Shown here in pieces: positions 1,523 to 21,607 of a stretch of DNA of 26,391 bases (positions are counted from its first letter, which is position 1; every line of letters starts with the position of its first letter). Source of the DNA: a virus. The position numbers were made by a program, and so were the translations under genes. The notes under the pieces were generated by a model. It did not search any database and was not told the DNA's origin. It saw only the letters and a list, made by a program, of their open reading frames with translations. Location of the stretch: positions 1 to 26,391 of the IMG/VR virus record IMGVR_UViG_3300042542_003580, one strand, 5' to 3'.

Positions 1523-2365
1523 TCAGCCTAAAAGGGAGCCAAACTCGGCGACCGTTAGCCGAACCAGCCACGCCTCGCGGTCCTTCACCCCGAACGAGAG
1601 CACGAACCCGCCGCCGTGCTCGGCGAGCCCGGCGCAGAATTCGACCTGCGCGCCGCGGAAGTAAAACTCCCGCCCGGCGTGCGCCGGCATCAGCTTGTCG
1701 TCGTAGCGCACCAGCCGGTGCGCGTAGTACACCCGCCCGCGCTCCTTGCGCCGCTGGTGTACCACCCCGACCCAGGCGTCGCCGTGGCGGATGATCTGCG
1801 AGCCGCCGGACCAGCCGGCCAATCCCGGGAACGACTCGAAGCAGATCTTCTCCCGCGCCGGCATCAGCTGGTACGACTCTGCCGGGTGGTGCGAGTACAC
1901 AAACGAGAGCCGGTCGCCGTCTGCGCGCGGCATCCAGTTTTTCTCCATCTCCCGGGCGTGCGGGCTGTGCAGAAACTCAAGCTCGTCGACCAGGCGGCCA
2001 TCCAGGGCGCAGAGCGCCATCGTCGTGCGCACCCGGGGGCCGTGGTGCAGCCCCGAGGCCGTAAAGCGCCACCGCTTGCGGAACCAAAATAGCCTCCCGT
2101 CCTCTAAGCCGTCCCGGCACGGCAGCCGCGAGACACGCTGCGAGGCGTCGTCCACGCGCTCGACCCGCGCCAGCGACAAGTCATCGCCAAGGTCGGCGAT
2201 GTAGTTGACCGTATCCGGCCCCGGGTCGTCCCGAAACCAGATCCCGTCCGTCTCGCCGAGCTCGTAGTTCACGGCGCGGATGAGGCACCGCAGCTCCCCG
2301 CCCGGGCCAACGGCCACCGACGGGTTACACGGCAGCATCGGCGCGCACGGCACCTCGAGGCGCAC
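1523..2365 (-). CDS. Five-bladed beta-propeller, GH43/GH130-like glycan-associated protein
   Basis: About 280 residues if translation starts at the GTG at 2365. The frame is open further upstream to 2581, but that extension overlaps a better small gene and has no family-like sequence. Motifs recur in a glycosidase-like beta-propeller family of bacterial and giant-virus glycan proteins: PCNPSV (12-17), EKNW (141-144), VYSHHP (156-161), GWSGGSQ (184-190), VEFCAGLA (241-248) and LSFGVKDREAWL (256-267). Such propellers bind or process oligosaccharides and are often found with glycosyltransferases, which fits the GT25 gene upstream. The exact substrate, and whether it is catalytic, cannot be read from the sequence. 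It follows a 45-aa gene by about 32 bases and precedes the portal by about 39. A GGGG six bases before the chosen GTG could serve as a ribosome site. The start is the least certain part. Confidence 0.72.
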   Translation of the reverse strand: MRLEVPCAPMLPCNPSVAVGPGGELRCLIRAVNYELGETDGIWFRDDPGPDTVNYIADLGDDLSLARVERVDDASQRVSRLPCRDGLEDGRLFWFRKRWRFTASGLHHGPRVRTTMALCALDGRLVDELEFLHSPHAREMEKNWMPRADGDRLSFVYSHHPAESYQLMPAREKICFESFPGLAGWSGGSQIIRHGDAWVGVVHQRRKERGRVYYAHRLVRYDDKLMPAHAGREFYFRGAQVEFCAGLAEHGGGFVLSFGVKDREAWLVRLTVAEFGSLLG

Positions 2366-5463: not shown

Positions 5464-5518
5464 CGTGCGTGCGTGTGCGCATCGGTGCCCGAGCGCGTGC
5501 TGATCGCCAGGCCGTAAG

Positions 5519-5561
5519 TTATCCACAGGTTATCCACAGGTTATCCACAGAGTTATCCACA
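5519..5561 (+). promoter_or_regulatory. Four tandem perfect DnaA boxes
   Basis: TTATCCACA occurs at 5519-5527, 5530-5538, 5541-5549 and 5553-5561, all on the plus strand, with start-to-start spacing of 11, 11 and 12 bases, about one helical turn. Each matches the high-affinity consensus of bacterial DnaA exactly. This spacing puts the boxes on one face of the helix and suits co-operative DnaA loading. The cluster implies host DnaA recruitment for phage replication, or less likely DnaA-controlled transcription. Confidence 0.88.
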
Positions 5562-5576
5562 GCCCGGTTCAATGAG

Positions 5577-7336: not shown

Positions 7337-7638
7337 GCCGGCCACCTAGGGTCGGTGCCGACCTCGCCCTTGGCGTCCTGGTAATGGACGACCTTGGCCC
7401 CGAAGTGGGCTTGGAAGGTCTTGAGCACCCGGAACCCCTCCTCACCCAGCCCGTCGACCATCCTCCGGCCGAAGGCCGTGTCTGTCTTGGCTGGTTCAAG
7501 TTCCAAGGCCGGGTACGGTACAAAAGGTACGAGTCCTAAAGGACTCTCGTACCTTTCGTACCCGGTTCGTACGGTACGAACGGGTACATTTCGTACCTTT
7601 CGTACTTTTCGTACCTGATTCTGTCTCATTTTTGCCAC
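7333..7638 (-). CDS. Hypothetical protein whose N-terminus is encoded by an iteron-like array
   Basis: A 101-residue frame starting at the GTG at 7638, three bases after the helicase stop's start-side neighbourhood, with GGAGGG upstream; an ATG at 7629 is an alternative. The first 35 residues (VAKMRQNQVRKVRKVRN..., VRTVRT, YERYES) are a basic, repetitive peptide translated from the GTAC-rich repeat array at 7513-7615. The rest (for example RRMVDGLGEEGFRVLKTFQAHFG) looks like an ordinary small helical domain. It may be a protein built around a DNA-binding-site array, or a true gene starting further in. No family is recognised. Confidence 0.5.
   Translation of the reverse strand: MAKMRQNQVRKVRKVRNVPVRTVRTGYERYESPLGLVPFVPYPALELEPAKTDTAFGRRMVDGLGEEGFRVLKTFQAHFGAKVVHYQDAKGEVGTDPRWPA
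7513..7615. repeat. Iteron-like array of GTAC-centred repeats
   Basis: GTAC occurs 11 times in about 100 bases. On the plus strand the 9-mer TTTCGTACC/T is found at 7554-7562, 7589-7597, 7598-7606 and 7607-7615 (the last three abut), with TCTCGTACC at 7545-7553 abutting the first. A perfect 8-base inverted repeat, GTTCGTAC-G-GTACGAAC, sits at 7565-7581. A bulged hairpin pairs GGTACGAGTCC (7526-7536) with GGACTCTCGTACC (7541-7553). Both orientations are present. The array lies just downstream of the primase-helicase gene, where plasmid and phage initiators often have iterons. It also fits a transcription-factor operator cluster. Confidence 0.85.
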
Positions 7639-7640
7639 AG

Positions 7641-9695
7641 TTACTTGCCCTCCCTCGACAGTTTGTAGCCCCCGACGGTGCCCGTCATGAAGGGCGAAAA
7701 GGCCAGCGCCTCGGCGGCCGCGTGGGCGGTCGTCTTGCTCATCGCCGCCTCCCTGCCGATCTGTCGCAGGTCCGGCAGCGACCAGATCATCTCCGAGTCG
7801 CTGCCCCTCTGGCGCTCCCTCAGCGCCGTCAACAGCTGCCGCTGTGCCTTGCCCTGCGGCATCGGCTCGCGCTCCTTGCGCCCCGCCGCGGCGGTCTCGC
7901 GCATGACCAGCGACTTGACCCGCTCGCCGTACTTGTCGGCGCGCCCCAGGTCCACCTCGGTGGCCTCGTAGGCGACCGGCGCCATGCTGGCGGTGTCCTT
8001 GAACCGCTCGCGGGTGACGTTCACGACCATCGCCTGGACATCGGGCCGCTCGACGATGTACTCGGCGTCCGGGTTGGCCATGAGCGCCGACGCGCCTCGC
8101 GGGCGCTTGCTGTCGCCGTGGCCTGAGTGCGCCACGAGCAGCACCGTGGCGCCGTACCGCTCCCGCAGCCCGACGGTGAGCTTCGAGAGGTACTCGGCCA
8201 CCTCCTGGTTCGAGTTCTCGTCGAGCCCGGCGGAGAACTTGCTGAAGGTGTCCACGATGATCAGCGCCGGTCGGATGCCGGCCTCGTCGATGCCCTGCTG
8301 GAGCGACCCCATGTCCGCCTCGGCGTTGAGGTTGGCGACCGACTCCAGCGCGAGCAGCCGCAGCTCGCTGAGGGTGCGCCCGTTGCCGTGCTCCTGCATC
8401 CACGCCTCGGCGCGCCGCCCGAGACCTGCGCCCTCGCCTGAGAGGATGACGACCGGGTTGCCGGCGGCGGCTATGCGCATCGCCCAGTCGAGGGCGATGA
8501 AGGACTTGAACGACGCGCGCGGCCCGGCGAGCACGGCGAGCACGTTCGCCTCGAGCACGTTGTGGATCAGCCAGGTAGCCTCGCGCCGCTCGGCGACGAT
8601 CTCTCCGATGGCGCGCAGCGTGAGCCGCCTACCGGGCGTGGCGGCCGCGCCGATCGACAGGAAGGTAGGCTCCGGCTCCCGCGCGCGCTCCATGCCCCTC
8701 GCCTCTGGCACATCGTCGTAGTCGCCGGGCGGCTCGTCCCTGACCGGCGGCCCGATGCGCACCGCCTCTGGCACCGGCACCCAGCCGCCCGCCTTGGCTG
8801 CGCTGAAGAGGCTCCCGAGCGTGACGCCCTTTCCGCGGTCCAGGTGGAAGCTCTGCCAGCGGTACTCCATGTCGGCGCGCCCTGCATAGGACGCCGGCAG
8901 CACGCCGGTGATGCCGCCGCTCGACCACGCATCCCAGAGCTCAAGGCCGTCGTCCGCGCCGCCGCTCGCGTGGTGCAGCGCCATCCCCACCATCAGCCAT
9001 GCGTCGTACCCCTCCGGGTCGATGTGCGCGATCGCCTCGGTGACGCGCGGCAGGTCGCGCTGGAAGTCCTGACTGGTGCCGGGCTTTGGCGGCAGCTTTT
9101 TGGCGACCTCGGCCGGGAGCTCGAGGTCCATCCGGCGCTCGTCGATGAGCCCCGCCGGCAGCGGCTGCGCCTCTTCCATGGGCCCGCTCTGGCCGTAGTG
9201 CAGCGGCCACCATATGACGTACCCGCCCTCGGCCCTGATGTCGAGCCCCTCGCGCTTGACCTTGCCTAGCACGACACTAGCGCCGCCTCGTATTTTTACC
9301 CCGGCGGGTGCCTTGAAGAGGTAATGACGGCCGCCGCTGCCGCCGCCGGTCGCGTGCACCCTGGTCTTGGTGAGCTCGAACTGGTGCTCGCTGATCCAGT
9401 CCTGCGCCGCGCTCGACGCGCTACGGTGGTCGTAGTCGATAACCACCAGCCCGGTGATGGAGCCGGTCGGCACCCCGACCAGCGCCTCCGGGTTCGCCGA
9501 CCACCAGCGCCTAATCTGCTGCTCGTCTTGGGTGGCATCCTTAAAGCCGTTGCGGGTGAGCGGGCTCTTGGCCTTTAGGACGCGCCCGTCCTGGTCTGTC
9601 TGGTCCGCCCTGCGGCACGGAAAGACCGGCGCGCGCTTGGCGAGCTCGAGGACGCGCTCGACGGGCACGACGGCGGTGAGGTCTGGCTTGGTCAT
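7641..9695 (-). CDS. Bifunctional primase-polymerase / RepA-like helicase
   Basis: A 684-residue replication protein. Residues about 14-190 form a Prim-Pol (archaeo-eukaryotic primase) domain with metal ligands in VVIDYDH (Asp87, Asp89), His114 in RVHATGG, SGGRHYLFK (120-128) and GLDIRAEGGYV (150-160, Asp152). Residues about 229-305 (YDAWLMVGMALHH ... SLFSAAKAGGW) match a PriCT-2 type C-terminal primase domain. The last part is a RepA/RecA-type ATPase with Walker A GPRASFKS (391-398), Walker B ALIIVDT (477-483), and VAHSGHGDSKRPRGASAL (521-538). It would prime and unwind phage DNA at an origin. The ATG at 9695 overlaps the upstream stop (ATGA); an extension to 9791 lies in the regulator gene and is not used. 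Confidence 0.9.
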   Translation of the reverse strand: MTKPDLTAVVPVERVLELAKRAPVFPCRRADQTDQDGRVLKAKSPLTRNGFKDATQDEQQIRRWWSANPEALVGVPTGSITGLVVIDYDHRSASSAAQDWISEHQFELTKTRVHATGGGSGGRHYLFKAPAGVKIRGGASVVLGKVKREGLDIRAEGGYVIWWPLHYGQSGPMEEAQPLPAGLIDERRMDLELPAEVAKKLPPKPGTSQDFQRDLPRVTEAIAHIDPEGYDAWLMVGMALHHASGGADDGLELWDAWSSGGITGVLPASYAGRADMEYRWQSFHLDRGKGVTLGSLFSAAKAGGWVPVPEAVRIGPPVRDEPPGDYDDVPEARGMERAREPEPTFLSIGAAATPGRRLTLRAIGEIVAERREATWLIHNVLEANVLAVLAGPRASFKSFIALDWAMRIAAAGNPVVILSGEGAGLGRRAEAWMQEHGNGRTLSELRLLALESVANLNAEADMGSLQQGIDEAGIRPALIIVDTFSKFSAGLDENSNQEVAEYLSKLTVGLRERYGATVLLVAHSGHGDSKRPRGASALMANPDAEYIVERPDVQAMVVNVTRERFKDTASMAPVAYEATEVDLGRADKYGERVKSLVMRETAAAGRKEREPMPQGKAQRQLLTALRERQRGSDSEMIWSLPDLRQIGREAAMSKTTAHAAAEALAFSPFMTGTVGGYKLSREGK

Positions 9696-9904: not shown

Positions 9905-10051
9905 GTTGACATGGTACAACCTTCGGTATAGGCCACGGAAGGGGGTATGAAAATATTTTACACCGGGGGGTTGTAATCCGTTTTCGGCTGTGCCAGTATT
10001 CATTCCACGGGCGGCGATGTTGCCGACCGGAAGTGATAGAAGGAGACGAAC
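9905..10051. promoter_or_regulatory. Divergent promoter/operator region
   Basis: 147 bases between the divergent regulator and plus-strand operons, AT-rich in the middle (AAAATATTTTACA). For the minus strand a possible promoter has -35 TTTTCA (complement of 9948-9953) and -10 TATACC (complement of 9925-9930), spacer 17. On the plus strand TTGACA at 9906-9911 and TATAGG at 9927-9932 have a short 15-base spacer and are weak. A 7-base inverted repeat, TACAACC (9915-9921) and GGTTGTA (9969-9975), overlaps these and is a candidate operator for the Cro-like protein. An AAGGAGA ribosome site precedes the plus-strand gene at 10052. Confidence 0.5.
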
Positions 10052-19564: not shown

Positions 19565-21607
19565 TCACGCCCTCCCGCGGCGCTTGGCGCCGACTTTCTT
19601 GTCCAATTCCTTCACGGCCTCGGTGAGCAGCCCCACTACCTGCGGCAGATCATACTGGCGCATGTTGTCCGAATCGCGCCGCGAGACGGCCTCGGGCATG
19701 GCGCGCTCGACGGACTGGGCCGACATGCCCATGTCCTCCTCGCCGCCCTTATCCTCGCCCTCGTTCTCGCCGTAGCCGTCCTGCCACTCGAACTCGATGC
19801 CCTTGAGGCGGCGCACCTTGTCGAGCGGGTTCTTGATGCCGCCGATGTTGCGCTTCATGTTCTCGTCGGAACCGGTCGGGAAAAACGCGCCGGCGGCCCT
19901 CGAGGCCATGTCCCAATAGGACGGCCGCCCGGTCACGGTCCCGGTAGTGGTCTGATTGAACGGCGACGCCGACACCGCACCCTGCCGGATCGCAAGCTGC
20001 CGCAGCGGGAACTCCTGCCGGCGGAGGTCCTCCTCGCGCTGCGCGTTGAGGAACTGCTGGTAGAGGTTCTGCTGCTGCGTGCCGAGGCCCATCATCGCCC
20101 GCCCCGACTCGTACCGGTTCGCGAGCGCCGTCTGGCCGTATCCCGCCAGGTCGCCCCCAGCGCGAAGCCGGAACTCTGCGCCCTGCAAGCCGGTGGCTTG
20201 GTTCGCGCGCGCGGCCTCCATGCCAGTCTGCACGTTGAACTGCTGCGCCGTCGACCCCATCCGCTGCGCGTCGAGCATGGCCCGCTGGTTGGCCTCCTCG
20301 GCGGACAGCCCCATCTGCATGTACTGCTGCACCGCCTGCTGGTTGGAGAGGCCCGCACGCATCTGCTGCTCAACATTGAACTGCTGCGCGGTTGAGCCTA
20401 GGCGCTGCGCCTCAAGCTCCGCCTGCTGGTTGCGCCCGGAGGCGTCGAGCATGGCGCGCTGGTTTGCCTCCTCTGCCGTGAGGCCCATGCGCATGTAGTC
20501 TTGAACGGTTTGCTGGTTCGCGCGCTCGGCCTCAAGCGCCGCCTGGACGTTCGTCGTCTCGGCCGTGAGCCCAAGCCGCTGCGCGTCCTGCTGCGCCTGC
20601 TGGTTCGCGCGCGCGGCCTCGAGGTTGGCCTGGACGTTCGTCGTCTCTCCCGTAAGCCCAAGCCGAGCGAGCTCAAGGTCGCGCTGCTGGTTCGTGATCT
20701 CGCCGCGCTGGGCGAGTTCTATCACATTCTGCGCCGCGTTCTGGTTGGAGAGGCGCACCGCCTGCTCGCGGCCGACGTCGGCCTCTCGCAGCGCCGCAGC
20801 CTCGCGGAAGCCACGCGCGCGCTGCTCGGCCACAAAGCGGTTGCGCTCGCGGGCGGCCTCGCCGGCGGCGATGCCCTCCTCGATGGCGGCCCTAGAGCCA
20901 CCGAAGGCACGCGCCGCCGTGGCGCGGGCTGATCGCGTCCCTCGAGCCTGCTCCTCGGCGCGGCTGATGTCCTCGAGCCCCGCCTGCGTGACGGCAGCCT
21001 CGTAGGGGTTAATGTAGCGGCCAAGGTCTTGGTCCAAGAAGCCCGCCGCCTGCGCCGTGGGCGCAGCGCCCGGCGCGCTAATCTCGCGCGCGCCAAAGGT
21101 GGTACCGACTCGGCCGGCGCTGACCTGCCCGGGGGCAAAGGTCGTCCCGACCCGCCCGGCAGAGATACGCTCCGGGCCGCGCCCAAGGGCCGCACCGACG
21201 CGCTCCGCGCCGATGGGCGCCGCGCCGAAGGTGGTCCCGATGGCGCCCGCCGCGACCCGCTCCGGGCCACCCGCGAGCGACGCGCCGATGTCGCGCGCGC
21301 CAAACTGGGTCCCAATCTGGCCGGCGCTGATGCGCTCAGGCTGGTAGCCCATCAGCGCCTGCGCGTTGCGCGCGGCGGCCTCCACCTCGGGGACGAAGCC
21401 GCCCTCGCGCGCGATGCGGCGCGTCGCGGCCTCGCCCTCCATATAGTCGCGCGTGAACGGCGCGACCATCATCCCGCGGTACGGCTCGTACGGGATGGCC
21501 GAGACCTCCTCGGCGAACTGCAGGTTCCGCAGCACGCTGTCGTAGATCCTCGGGTCGATCTCCGTCTTGGAGACTTCCTTCTTCTTGCTCGAAAAAATCT
21601 TGCTCAT
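19565..21607 (-). CDS. Repeat-rich structural protein with C-terminal S74-like domain
   Basis: A 680-residue protein in three parts. Residues about 90-180 hold repeats of GPERISAG, AGRVGTTFG and similar Gly-rich units. Residues about 270-480 are Gln/Asn/Ala-rich coiled-coil-like repeats with a 58-residue period, for example GLTAEEANQRAMLDASGRNQ and GLSAEEANQRAMLDAQRMG. The last 100 residues match the S74 intramolecular-chaperone pattern: SDENMKRNI with Ser580 and Lys585 at the S-D-x-x-x-K spacing, RLKGIEFEWQDG, MSAQSVERAMPEAV and AVKELD. The catalytic dyad suggests self-cleavage after trimer folding. It is probably a fibrous or tail-tube-associated virion component, in the ejection-protein block. 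It overlaps the GNAT-like gene by four bases. Confidence 0.7.
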   Translation of the reverse strand: MSKIFSSKKKEVSKTEIDPRIYDSVLRNLQFAEEVSAIPYEPYRGMMVAPFTRDYMEGEAATRRIAREGGFVPEVEAAARNAQALMGYQPERISAGQIGTQFGARDIGASLAGGPERVAAGAIGTTFGAAPIGAERVGAALGRGPERISAGRVGTTFAPGQVSAGRVGTTFGAREISAPGAAPTAQAAGFLDQDLGRYINPYEAAVTQAGLEDISRAEEQARGTRSARATAARAFGGSRAAIEEGIAAGEAARERNRFVAEQRARGFREAAALREADVGREQAVRLSNQNAAQNVIELAQRGEITNQQRDLELARLGLTGETTNVQANLEAARANQQAQQDAQRLGLTAETTNVQAALEAERANQQTVQDYMRMGLTAEEANQRAMLDASGRNQQAELEAQRLGSTAQQFNVEQQMRAGLSNQQAVQQYMQMGLSAEEANQRAMLDAQRMGSTAQQFNVQTGMEAARANQATGLQGAEFRLRAGGDLAGYGQTALANRYESGRAMMGLGTQQQNLYQQFLNAQREEDLRRQEFPLRQLAIRQGAVSASPFNQTTTGTVTGRPSYWDMASRAAGAFFPTGSDENMKRNIGGIKNPLDKVRRLKGIEFEWQDGYGENEGEDKGGEEDMGMSAQSVERAMPEAVSRRDSDNMRQYDLPQVVGLLTEAVKELDKKVGAKRRGRA
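20268..20476. repeat. Direct DNA repeats, 174-base period, in structural gene
   Basis: The segment at 20268-20302 (GCGTCGAGCATGGCCCGCTG and following) recurs at 20442-20476 with few changes, 174 bases apart, equal to 58 codons. It reflects the internal protein repeats of the gene at 19565-21607 and is a possible site of repeat-number variation by recombination. Confidence 0.65.

Follow-up and report, generated by a model that had tools for sequence, protein, structure and literature searches.

In lambdoid phages, the type-specific initiator (the O protein) and the iterons of its ori are exchanged together. P4 has a separate crr element besides its ori. For the SaPI Rep and SCCmec Cch2 proteins, it is the C-terminal domain of the initiator that reads the repeats, and these lie directly downstream of its own gene (PMC7581432). 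The Prim-Pol replicon pRN1 depends on a structure that follows immediately after its initiator gene and in which pairing is conserved and sequence is not, and a stem-loop origin like that of pRN1 has also been proposed for Bordetella phage BIP-1/BPP-1 (PMC4234260). In the PLE satellites, the DNA-binding domain of RepA covaries with the origin, and the two function only when they are a cognate pair (PMC8263062).

The stretch of DNA analysed here in full, referred to as the window, is IMG/VR virus record IMGVR_UViG_3300042542_003580 (26,391 bases). It carries an array of short repeats just downstream of a Prim-Pol initiator gene. Judged from sequence comparison and from analogy, the initiator encoded immediately upstream very probably has its cognate binding site in this array, which would most likely also serve as its replication origin. 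The best reading is that its repeats would be initiator-bound iterons that form the phage origin and are exchanged as a cassette with their reader.

An array of short repeats past the initiator gene

All 11 GTAC tetramers of the array fall within 102 bases (7513-7614), as a sequence-only reading of this DNA had counted. The maximum in any 102-base stretch of 200 first-order Markov sequences, simulated with the window's length and nearest-neighbour make-up, was four. Therefore, the cluster is not due to chance. The other parts described in that reading are also in place: four copies of TTTCGTACY (one at 7554 and three directly adjoining ones with a period of 9, at 7589, 7598 and 7607), a variant unit TCTCGTACC at 7545, a perfect inverted repeat and a hairpin (Table 1). 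As single-stranded DNA, the array folds much better than shuffles (z -7.5). It is itself the local GC minimum (46-52% vs 65-76% in the flanking genes), and there is no separate A+T-rich tract. The papers searched contain no mention of the repeat letters. Outside the array GTAC is also about twice as frequent as expected, with 79 copies there and 45 +/- 6 in all in shuffles. A repeat of another kind lies at 20511-20694, where 2.1 copies of an 87-bp tandem unit are found within a large minus-strand gene (19565-21607).

Table 1. Positions of the array, its parts and the neighbouring reading frames in the window.
Feature	Positions	Strand	Basis or remark
Iteron-hairpin array, putative replication origin	7509..7615	-	Repeats, geometry in relatives, conservation
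Three abutting direct units GGTACGAAA AGTACGAAA GGTACGAAA	7589..7615	-	
Perfect 8+1+8 inverted repeat containing inverted units	7565..7581	none	
Second pair, direct units GGTACGAAA GGTACGAGA	7545..7562	-	
Hairpin core GAGTCCTTTAGGACTC, GAGTCC-TTTA-GGACTC	7531..7546	-	Stem letters vary on both arms among relatives, pairing kept
Terminal inverted units, GTAC at 7527, 7518 and 7513	7509..7530	-	
Replication initiator, 684 aa: Prim-Pol, PriCT_2, AAA_25 (RecA-like) helicase, C-terminal winged helix	7641..9695	-	Pfam; AlphaFold2
Codons of the C-terminal winged helix (about residues 612-684), reader half of the exchangeable cassette	7641..7862	-	
Recognition helix, residues 654-665	7701..7736	-	Sequence tracks array class
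Small downstream ORF, 57 aa	7333..7506	-	Start TTG (7506-7504); no family match

The array fills the gap between the initiator gene and the small ORF, beginning 25 bases past the initiator stop and ending just ahead of the ORF. In having short repeats directly after the initiator gene, the window resembles the SaPI/Cch2 systems, and in having fixed-period tandem iterons near such a gene it resembles iteron plasmids of the theta type. The initiator itself is not the Rep_3/RepA-type protein without fused primase that such plasmids encode. It combines Prim-Pol, helicase and a C-terminal winged helix in one protein, as pRN1-type systems do. Its helicase belongs to AAA_25, being neither DUF927, D5/Primase_Cterm nor SF3, and RepA_N is absent from its Pfam hits. 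The last 89 residues are modelled as a winged helix (AlphaFold2, pLDDT 83.6) with a wing at residues 670-679; the full-length model is of low confidence (pLDDT 52), and only the C-terminal model was used. Foldseek partners of this model are mostly winged-helix-like, none of them at a significant E-value.

Relatives keep the layout and change the letters

Searching with the initiator yielded 80 loci, and two profile searches in that collection turned up more. Arrays are present in the relatives with enough sequence past the initiator stop. About 75 relatives have the same array geometry in the same place, with the letters of the units changed in concert. The unit is GGTACGAAA in class A, to which the window belongs, TGTCCGAAA in class B, GGTCAAAAA in class C, TGTTGGAAA in class D (L060) and TTGTCCGGAT in class E (L061/L062). 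One locus, L039, has a mis-set 3' end and owes its class label to few units. In complete or near-complete relatives, searched as whole genomes, the unit is essentially confined to the array location.

The layout runs as three direct units, two inverted, two direct, a hairpin and further inverted units. Counted from the first unit, direct units stand at +1, +10/11 and +20/21 and later at +53/54 and +62/64, whereas inverted units stand at +30, often at +40, and past the hairpin at about +92 and +105. The hairpin stems include GAGTCC/GGACTC, GTGTCC/GGACAC, GAGACC/GGTCTC and AAAACCC/GGGTTTT, among others. They differ on both arms between loci, so pairing is kept despite the change of letters. A stem-loop downstream of the gene that persists under sequence change is also what is found in pRN1. 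Class A loci agree with one another at 93-99% of array bases, as against 58-79% at fourfold-degenerate sites of the initiator, so selection acts on the array bases themselves.

Two further observations concern the same relatives. In classes B, D and E (L016, L031, L055, L060, L061) an inverted pair GGTCA...TGACC occupies fixed places while the unit letters vary, and this pair may be a second contact of the initiator, one that stays constant. The records behind L046, L033 and L066 have direct terminal repeats of 127 bases. Assemblers produce such ends from circular or circularly permuted genomes, which points to a complete genome size of about 35-37 kb in this phage family.

Is the array translated as well? 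It had been described as part of a coding sequence, its 9-base unit reading as Val-Arg-Lys repeats, and one frame is indeed open through it in the window's clade and class. However, comparison of reading frames suggests that the small ORF most likely starts past the array. Its start codon is TTG in the window, GTG in L020 and ATG in L026, all at the identical position, which argues for translation from that point. Moreover, most class B and C relatives have no single conserved open frame at the array: every frame across it is interrupted by a stop in 25 of the 42 loci with sequence, and the rest share neither frame nor peptide with class A. The other classes thus show stops, other periods and other peptides. 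Had the peptide been the conserved element, related phages should have kept it with free synonymous change and lost the repeats. The opposite is found. Loci of one class have nearly the same array DNA throughout; between classes it is the peptide that disappears and the geometry of the repeats that persists. The Val-Arg-Lys reading is rejected, since neither frame nor peptide is conserved beyond the window's class, and the array probably lies outside any gene. In L042 and L065 an unrelated gene replaces the small ORF just past the array. Hence, no single downstream gene goes with the array.

A connection with GGTACAA at 9913, in the divergent control region, had been proposed too. Within the same class, some members have this sequence and others do not, and in the other classes a class-matched unit is absent from the region upstream of the initiator. 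GGTACAA at 9913 therefore does not belong to the array system.

The unit letters and the recognition helix change together

Which protein reads the array? The candidates put forward had been a Cro-like protein, an NrdR-like zinc ribbon and the Prim-Pol helicase. Covariation and exchange point to the C-terminal winged helix of the initiator, not to the first two. Unit class and recognition-helix sequence match in 65/65 distinct loci, the helix letters being KTTAH in class A, RQSVH in B, KQSVH in C, RHSVH in D and RSSVH in E. L055 (class B) and L061 (class E) form a natural pair with few differences in the helix. When all 684 residues were scanned for positions at least 90% fixed within each of A, B and C but not the same in all three, 11 were class-diagnostic (617, 642, 648, 651, 654-657, 661, 664 and 677) and none lay in residues 1-616.

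The class has changed repeatedly. On a tree of residues 1-605, built from 50 non-redundant sequences, there are at least nine changes of array class, where the possible minimum is four. Well-supported branches alone force three (A), six (B) and four (C). Independent pairs agree in 3/3 cases for A, 6/6 for B (p 0.03) and 4/4 for C; only class B reaches this p value because such pairs are few.

Close relatives of different class show where the exchange occurred. L016 is 90.7% identical to the window over residues 1-612, its C-terminal domain is 47% identical and its array class is different. Counted from the initiator stop, DNA identity between L049 (class C) and L050 (class B) is 92-100% between -1200 and about -420, dips to 50-78% from about -420 to about +180 and recovers to 82-98% beyond. 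A similar dip separates L056 (B) and L061 (E) from -240 to +120. In both pairs identity falls only over the winged-helix codons and the array. The similarity is also crossed: L049 and L050 share 95% of the backbone and 57% of the cassette, whereas L049 and L043 share 76% and 87%, respectively, and L016 stands in the same way towards the window and L031. A matching pair of protein and DNA explains this pattern. An RNA element, a peptide or the operator of another protein does not.

As the comparison of these loci shows, the array letters change with the recognition helix, and the two travel as a single cassette of about 350-550 bp while the geometry stays fixed. A DNA-binding domain and an origin swapped as a module between similar elements are a PLE-type feature. 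Recognition of the repeats by the C-terminal domain, as the covariation and cassette exchange would indicate, is a SaPI/Cch2-type feature.

An origin, or another kind of site?

Covariation shows recognition, not origin function as such. The origin reading is drawn from the precedents of SaPI Rep/Cch2, pRN1 and PLE RepA. The earlier suggestion of iteron-like sites beside an initiator-helicase gene, perhaps an origin, is strongly supported by the comparison, the origin role being the part that is reasoned from those precedents. With a spacing of about 10 bp, initiators holding the 9/10-bp units by their winged helices would line up along the same side of the DNA duplex, and the RecA-like helicase ring would assemble at the array and open the locally A+T-richer segment. 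The exposed hairpin might then position the Prim-Pol domain for laying the first primer. With reader and address swapped together, a phage would gain a private origin, which factors specific for a neighbour's origin could neither use nor attack.

What if the winged helix binds the array for regulation or copy control (as an operator, a titration site or an incompatibility locus like P4 crr) and replication starts elsewhere? Initiators of iteron systems often do bind control sites as well. The window also offers another place to start: the terminase subunit genes flank a tandem run of four GTTATCCACAG units (5518-5562), every one with a perfect DnaA box TTATCCACA, and these could mark another or the real origin. 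In the window's clade this cluster lies 2 kb from the array. However, many relatives are without it. Near-complete relatives have four DnaA boxes (L018), three (L016), two (L026) and one or none in the others, and several complete relatives have none. The array is, moreover, behind the initiator gene and not in front of it, no class-matched unit lies upstream of that gene, there is no promoter-like site at the array, and the gene that follows is not constant (L042, L065). A purely regulatory role is thus unlikely.

GC skew supports an origin in only two class A relatives, in which its minima lie 330-350 bases from the array and its maxima nearly opposite. The pattern is not seen in classes B and C, and gene strand bias confounds GC skew.

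The remaining explanations for the array fare worse. It is very improbable that the array is an RNA element, a terminator or attenuator hairpin ending the initiator transcript. The hairpin does have a terminator-like score and its stem does change on both arms, but the direct repeats, the concerted change of units and the coupling to the recognition helix are left unexplained. A known RNA family was rejected, as Rfam gives none above the gathering cut-off (best E 0.13). A packaging (pac) or partition site that lies beside the initiator by happenstance is a shade less credible still. Partition sites are typically repeat arrays and the terminase genes are 1.5 kb downstream, but the array is coupled with the last domain of the initiator, and the swap spans initiator codons and not terminase. 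Finally, the idea that the Val-Arg-Lys peptide is the selected feature has the open frame of the window's class on its side and is hardly tenable given the stops and lack of conservation in other classes, the start-codon variation past the array and the conserved silent positions.

Similar layouts behind distant initiators

The initiators of L087 (CCCGAAA) and Salicola phage CGphi29 (GGGGACA) are followed by a similar layout in other letters. In L089 from Ancylobacter (GGCGACA) such a layout overlaps the gene end, and in Bordetella phage BPP-1 (GAGGCAA) it lies roughly 0.5 kb past the gene. In BPP-1 (L232, about 2095-2220, minus strand) direct repeats of TTTGCCTCG, a hairpin and inverted copies lie between bbp28 and bbp27. 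These repeats are a candidate origin, distinct from the gene-nearer stem-loop proposed previously (PMC4234260).

How common is the layout? Prim-Pol loci were surveyed from 589 genomes of two proteobacterial groups for a 7-mer occurring at least five times in a 140-base stretch that begins no more than 150 bases from the initiator stop. Such arrays follow 9 of the 35 long initiators with sequence past the stop, L342 being a weak case among the nine; loci scoring four (L321, L326, L328) were left uncounted. Among 13,724 other windows of the same loci, mostly coding DNA, there were none. L327, L341 and L333 closely repeat the layout of the window, with hairpin loops such as CCTATAGG and CCTTTAGG. 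The helicase types ahead of such arrays include AAA_25, DUF927, DUF5906, D5_N and DUF3987. By this measure most sampled genome loci have no array, and the Vibrio, Klebsiella, Serratia and Pseudoalteromonas phages in the sample likewise have none after their Prim-Pol genes. The layout is therefore common without being universal.

Perhaps the direct-inverted-direct-hairpin-inverted layout, with its CTTTAG-type loop, is an unrecognised class of portable origin behind AAA_25, DUF927, DUF5906, D5 and DUF3987 initiators of proteobacterial phages and islands. Its letters would be rewritten together with the DNA-reading domain, so that winged-helix residues and DNA would be linked by a natural code open to decoding. 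The probable driver would be interference among mobile elements that is aimed at origins. The idea is to be held tentatively, its chances falling somewhat short of even.

Whatever the fate of this idea, a probable origin and its reader can now be named for an uncultivated freshwater phage family, and near-identical phages supply matched pairs of reader and address that amount to a natural specificity-swap experiment. Several questions become testable. How few winged-helix residues alter which iteron is read? Do private origins shield phages from satellites or origin-cutting nucleases? Protection of this kind has been shown for PLE and Odn (PMC8263062). Are the stem-loop origins of the pRN1 and BPP-1 type, which are not conserved in sequence, iteron arrays with varying letters? 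There is also a simple rule for finding origins in metagenomic phages, which is to inspect the DNA just past the initiator stop codon.

Comparison with known systems

The lambdoid O system differs in that the origin is inside the O gene, the DNA-binding domain is N-terminal and the helicase loader is separate. SaPI Rep and Cch2 resemble the present initiator in being self-loading initiator helicases with a C-terminal DNA-binding domain and a short-repeat origin just downstream. However, the helicase here is of the AAA_25/RecA-like type with a fused Prim-Pol domain, not DUF927 or D5/Primase_Cterm, the 9/10-bp units are in both orientations around a hairpin, and the hosts of the system are freshwater phages and not staphylococcal islands. 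The ORF904 protein of pRN1 is likewise a Prim-Pol-helicase fusion with a C-terminal winged helix, and its origin is just downstream, with low sequence conservation and a structure that is kept. In contrast, its helicase is SF3, and pRN1 has been described without iterons and with its binding motif not identified (PMC4234260), whereas here the motif is explicit and covaries with its reader. The alpha protein of P4 is also a primase-helicase with a winged helix that binds origin repeats (PMC4234260), although the P4 primase is of the Toprim type. The RepA protein of the Vibrio PLE shows the same covariation of DNA-binding domain and origin, with several exchanges, and PLE replicates only as cognate pairs (PMC8263062), but it has an N-terminal RepA_N domain and iterons of about 30 bp, and the fused primase/helicase is absent. 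An iteron origin downstream of the gene and read by the C-terminal domain is of a known kind (SaPI, P4, pRN1, PLE). What is new is the phage family, the helicase type, a covariation resolved to the recognition helix and a hairpin layout that recurs behind unrelated initiators.
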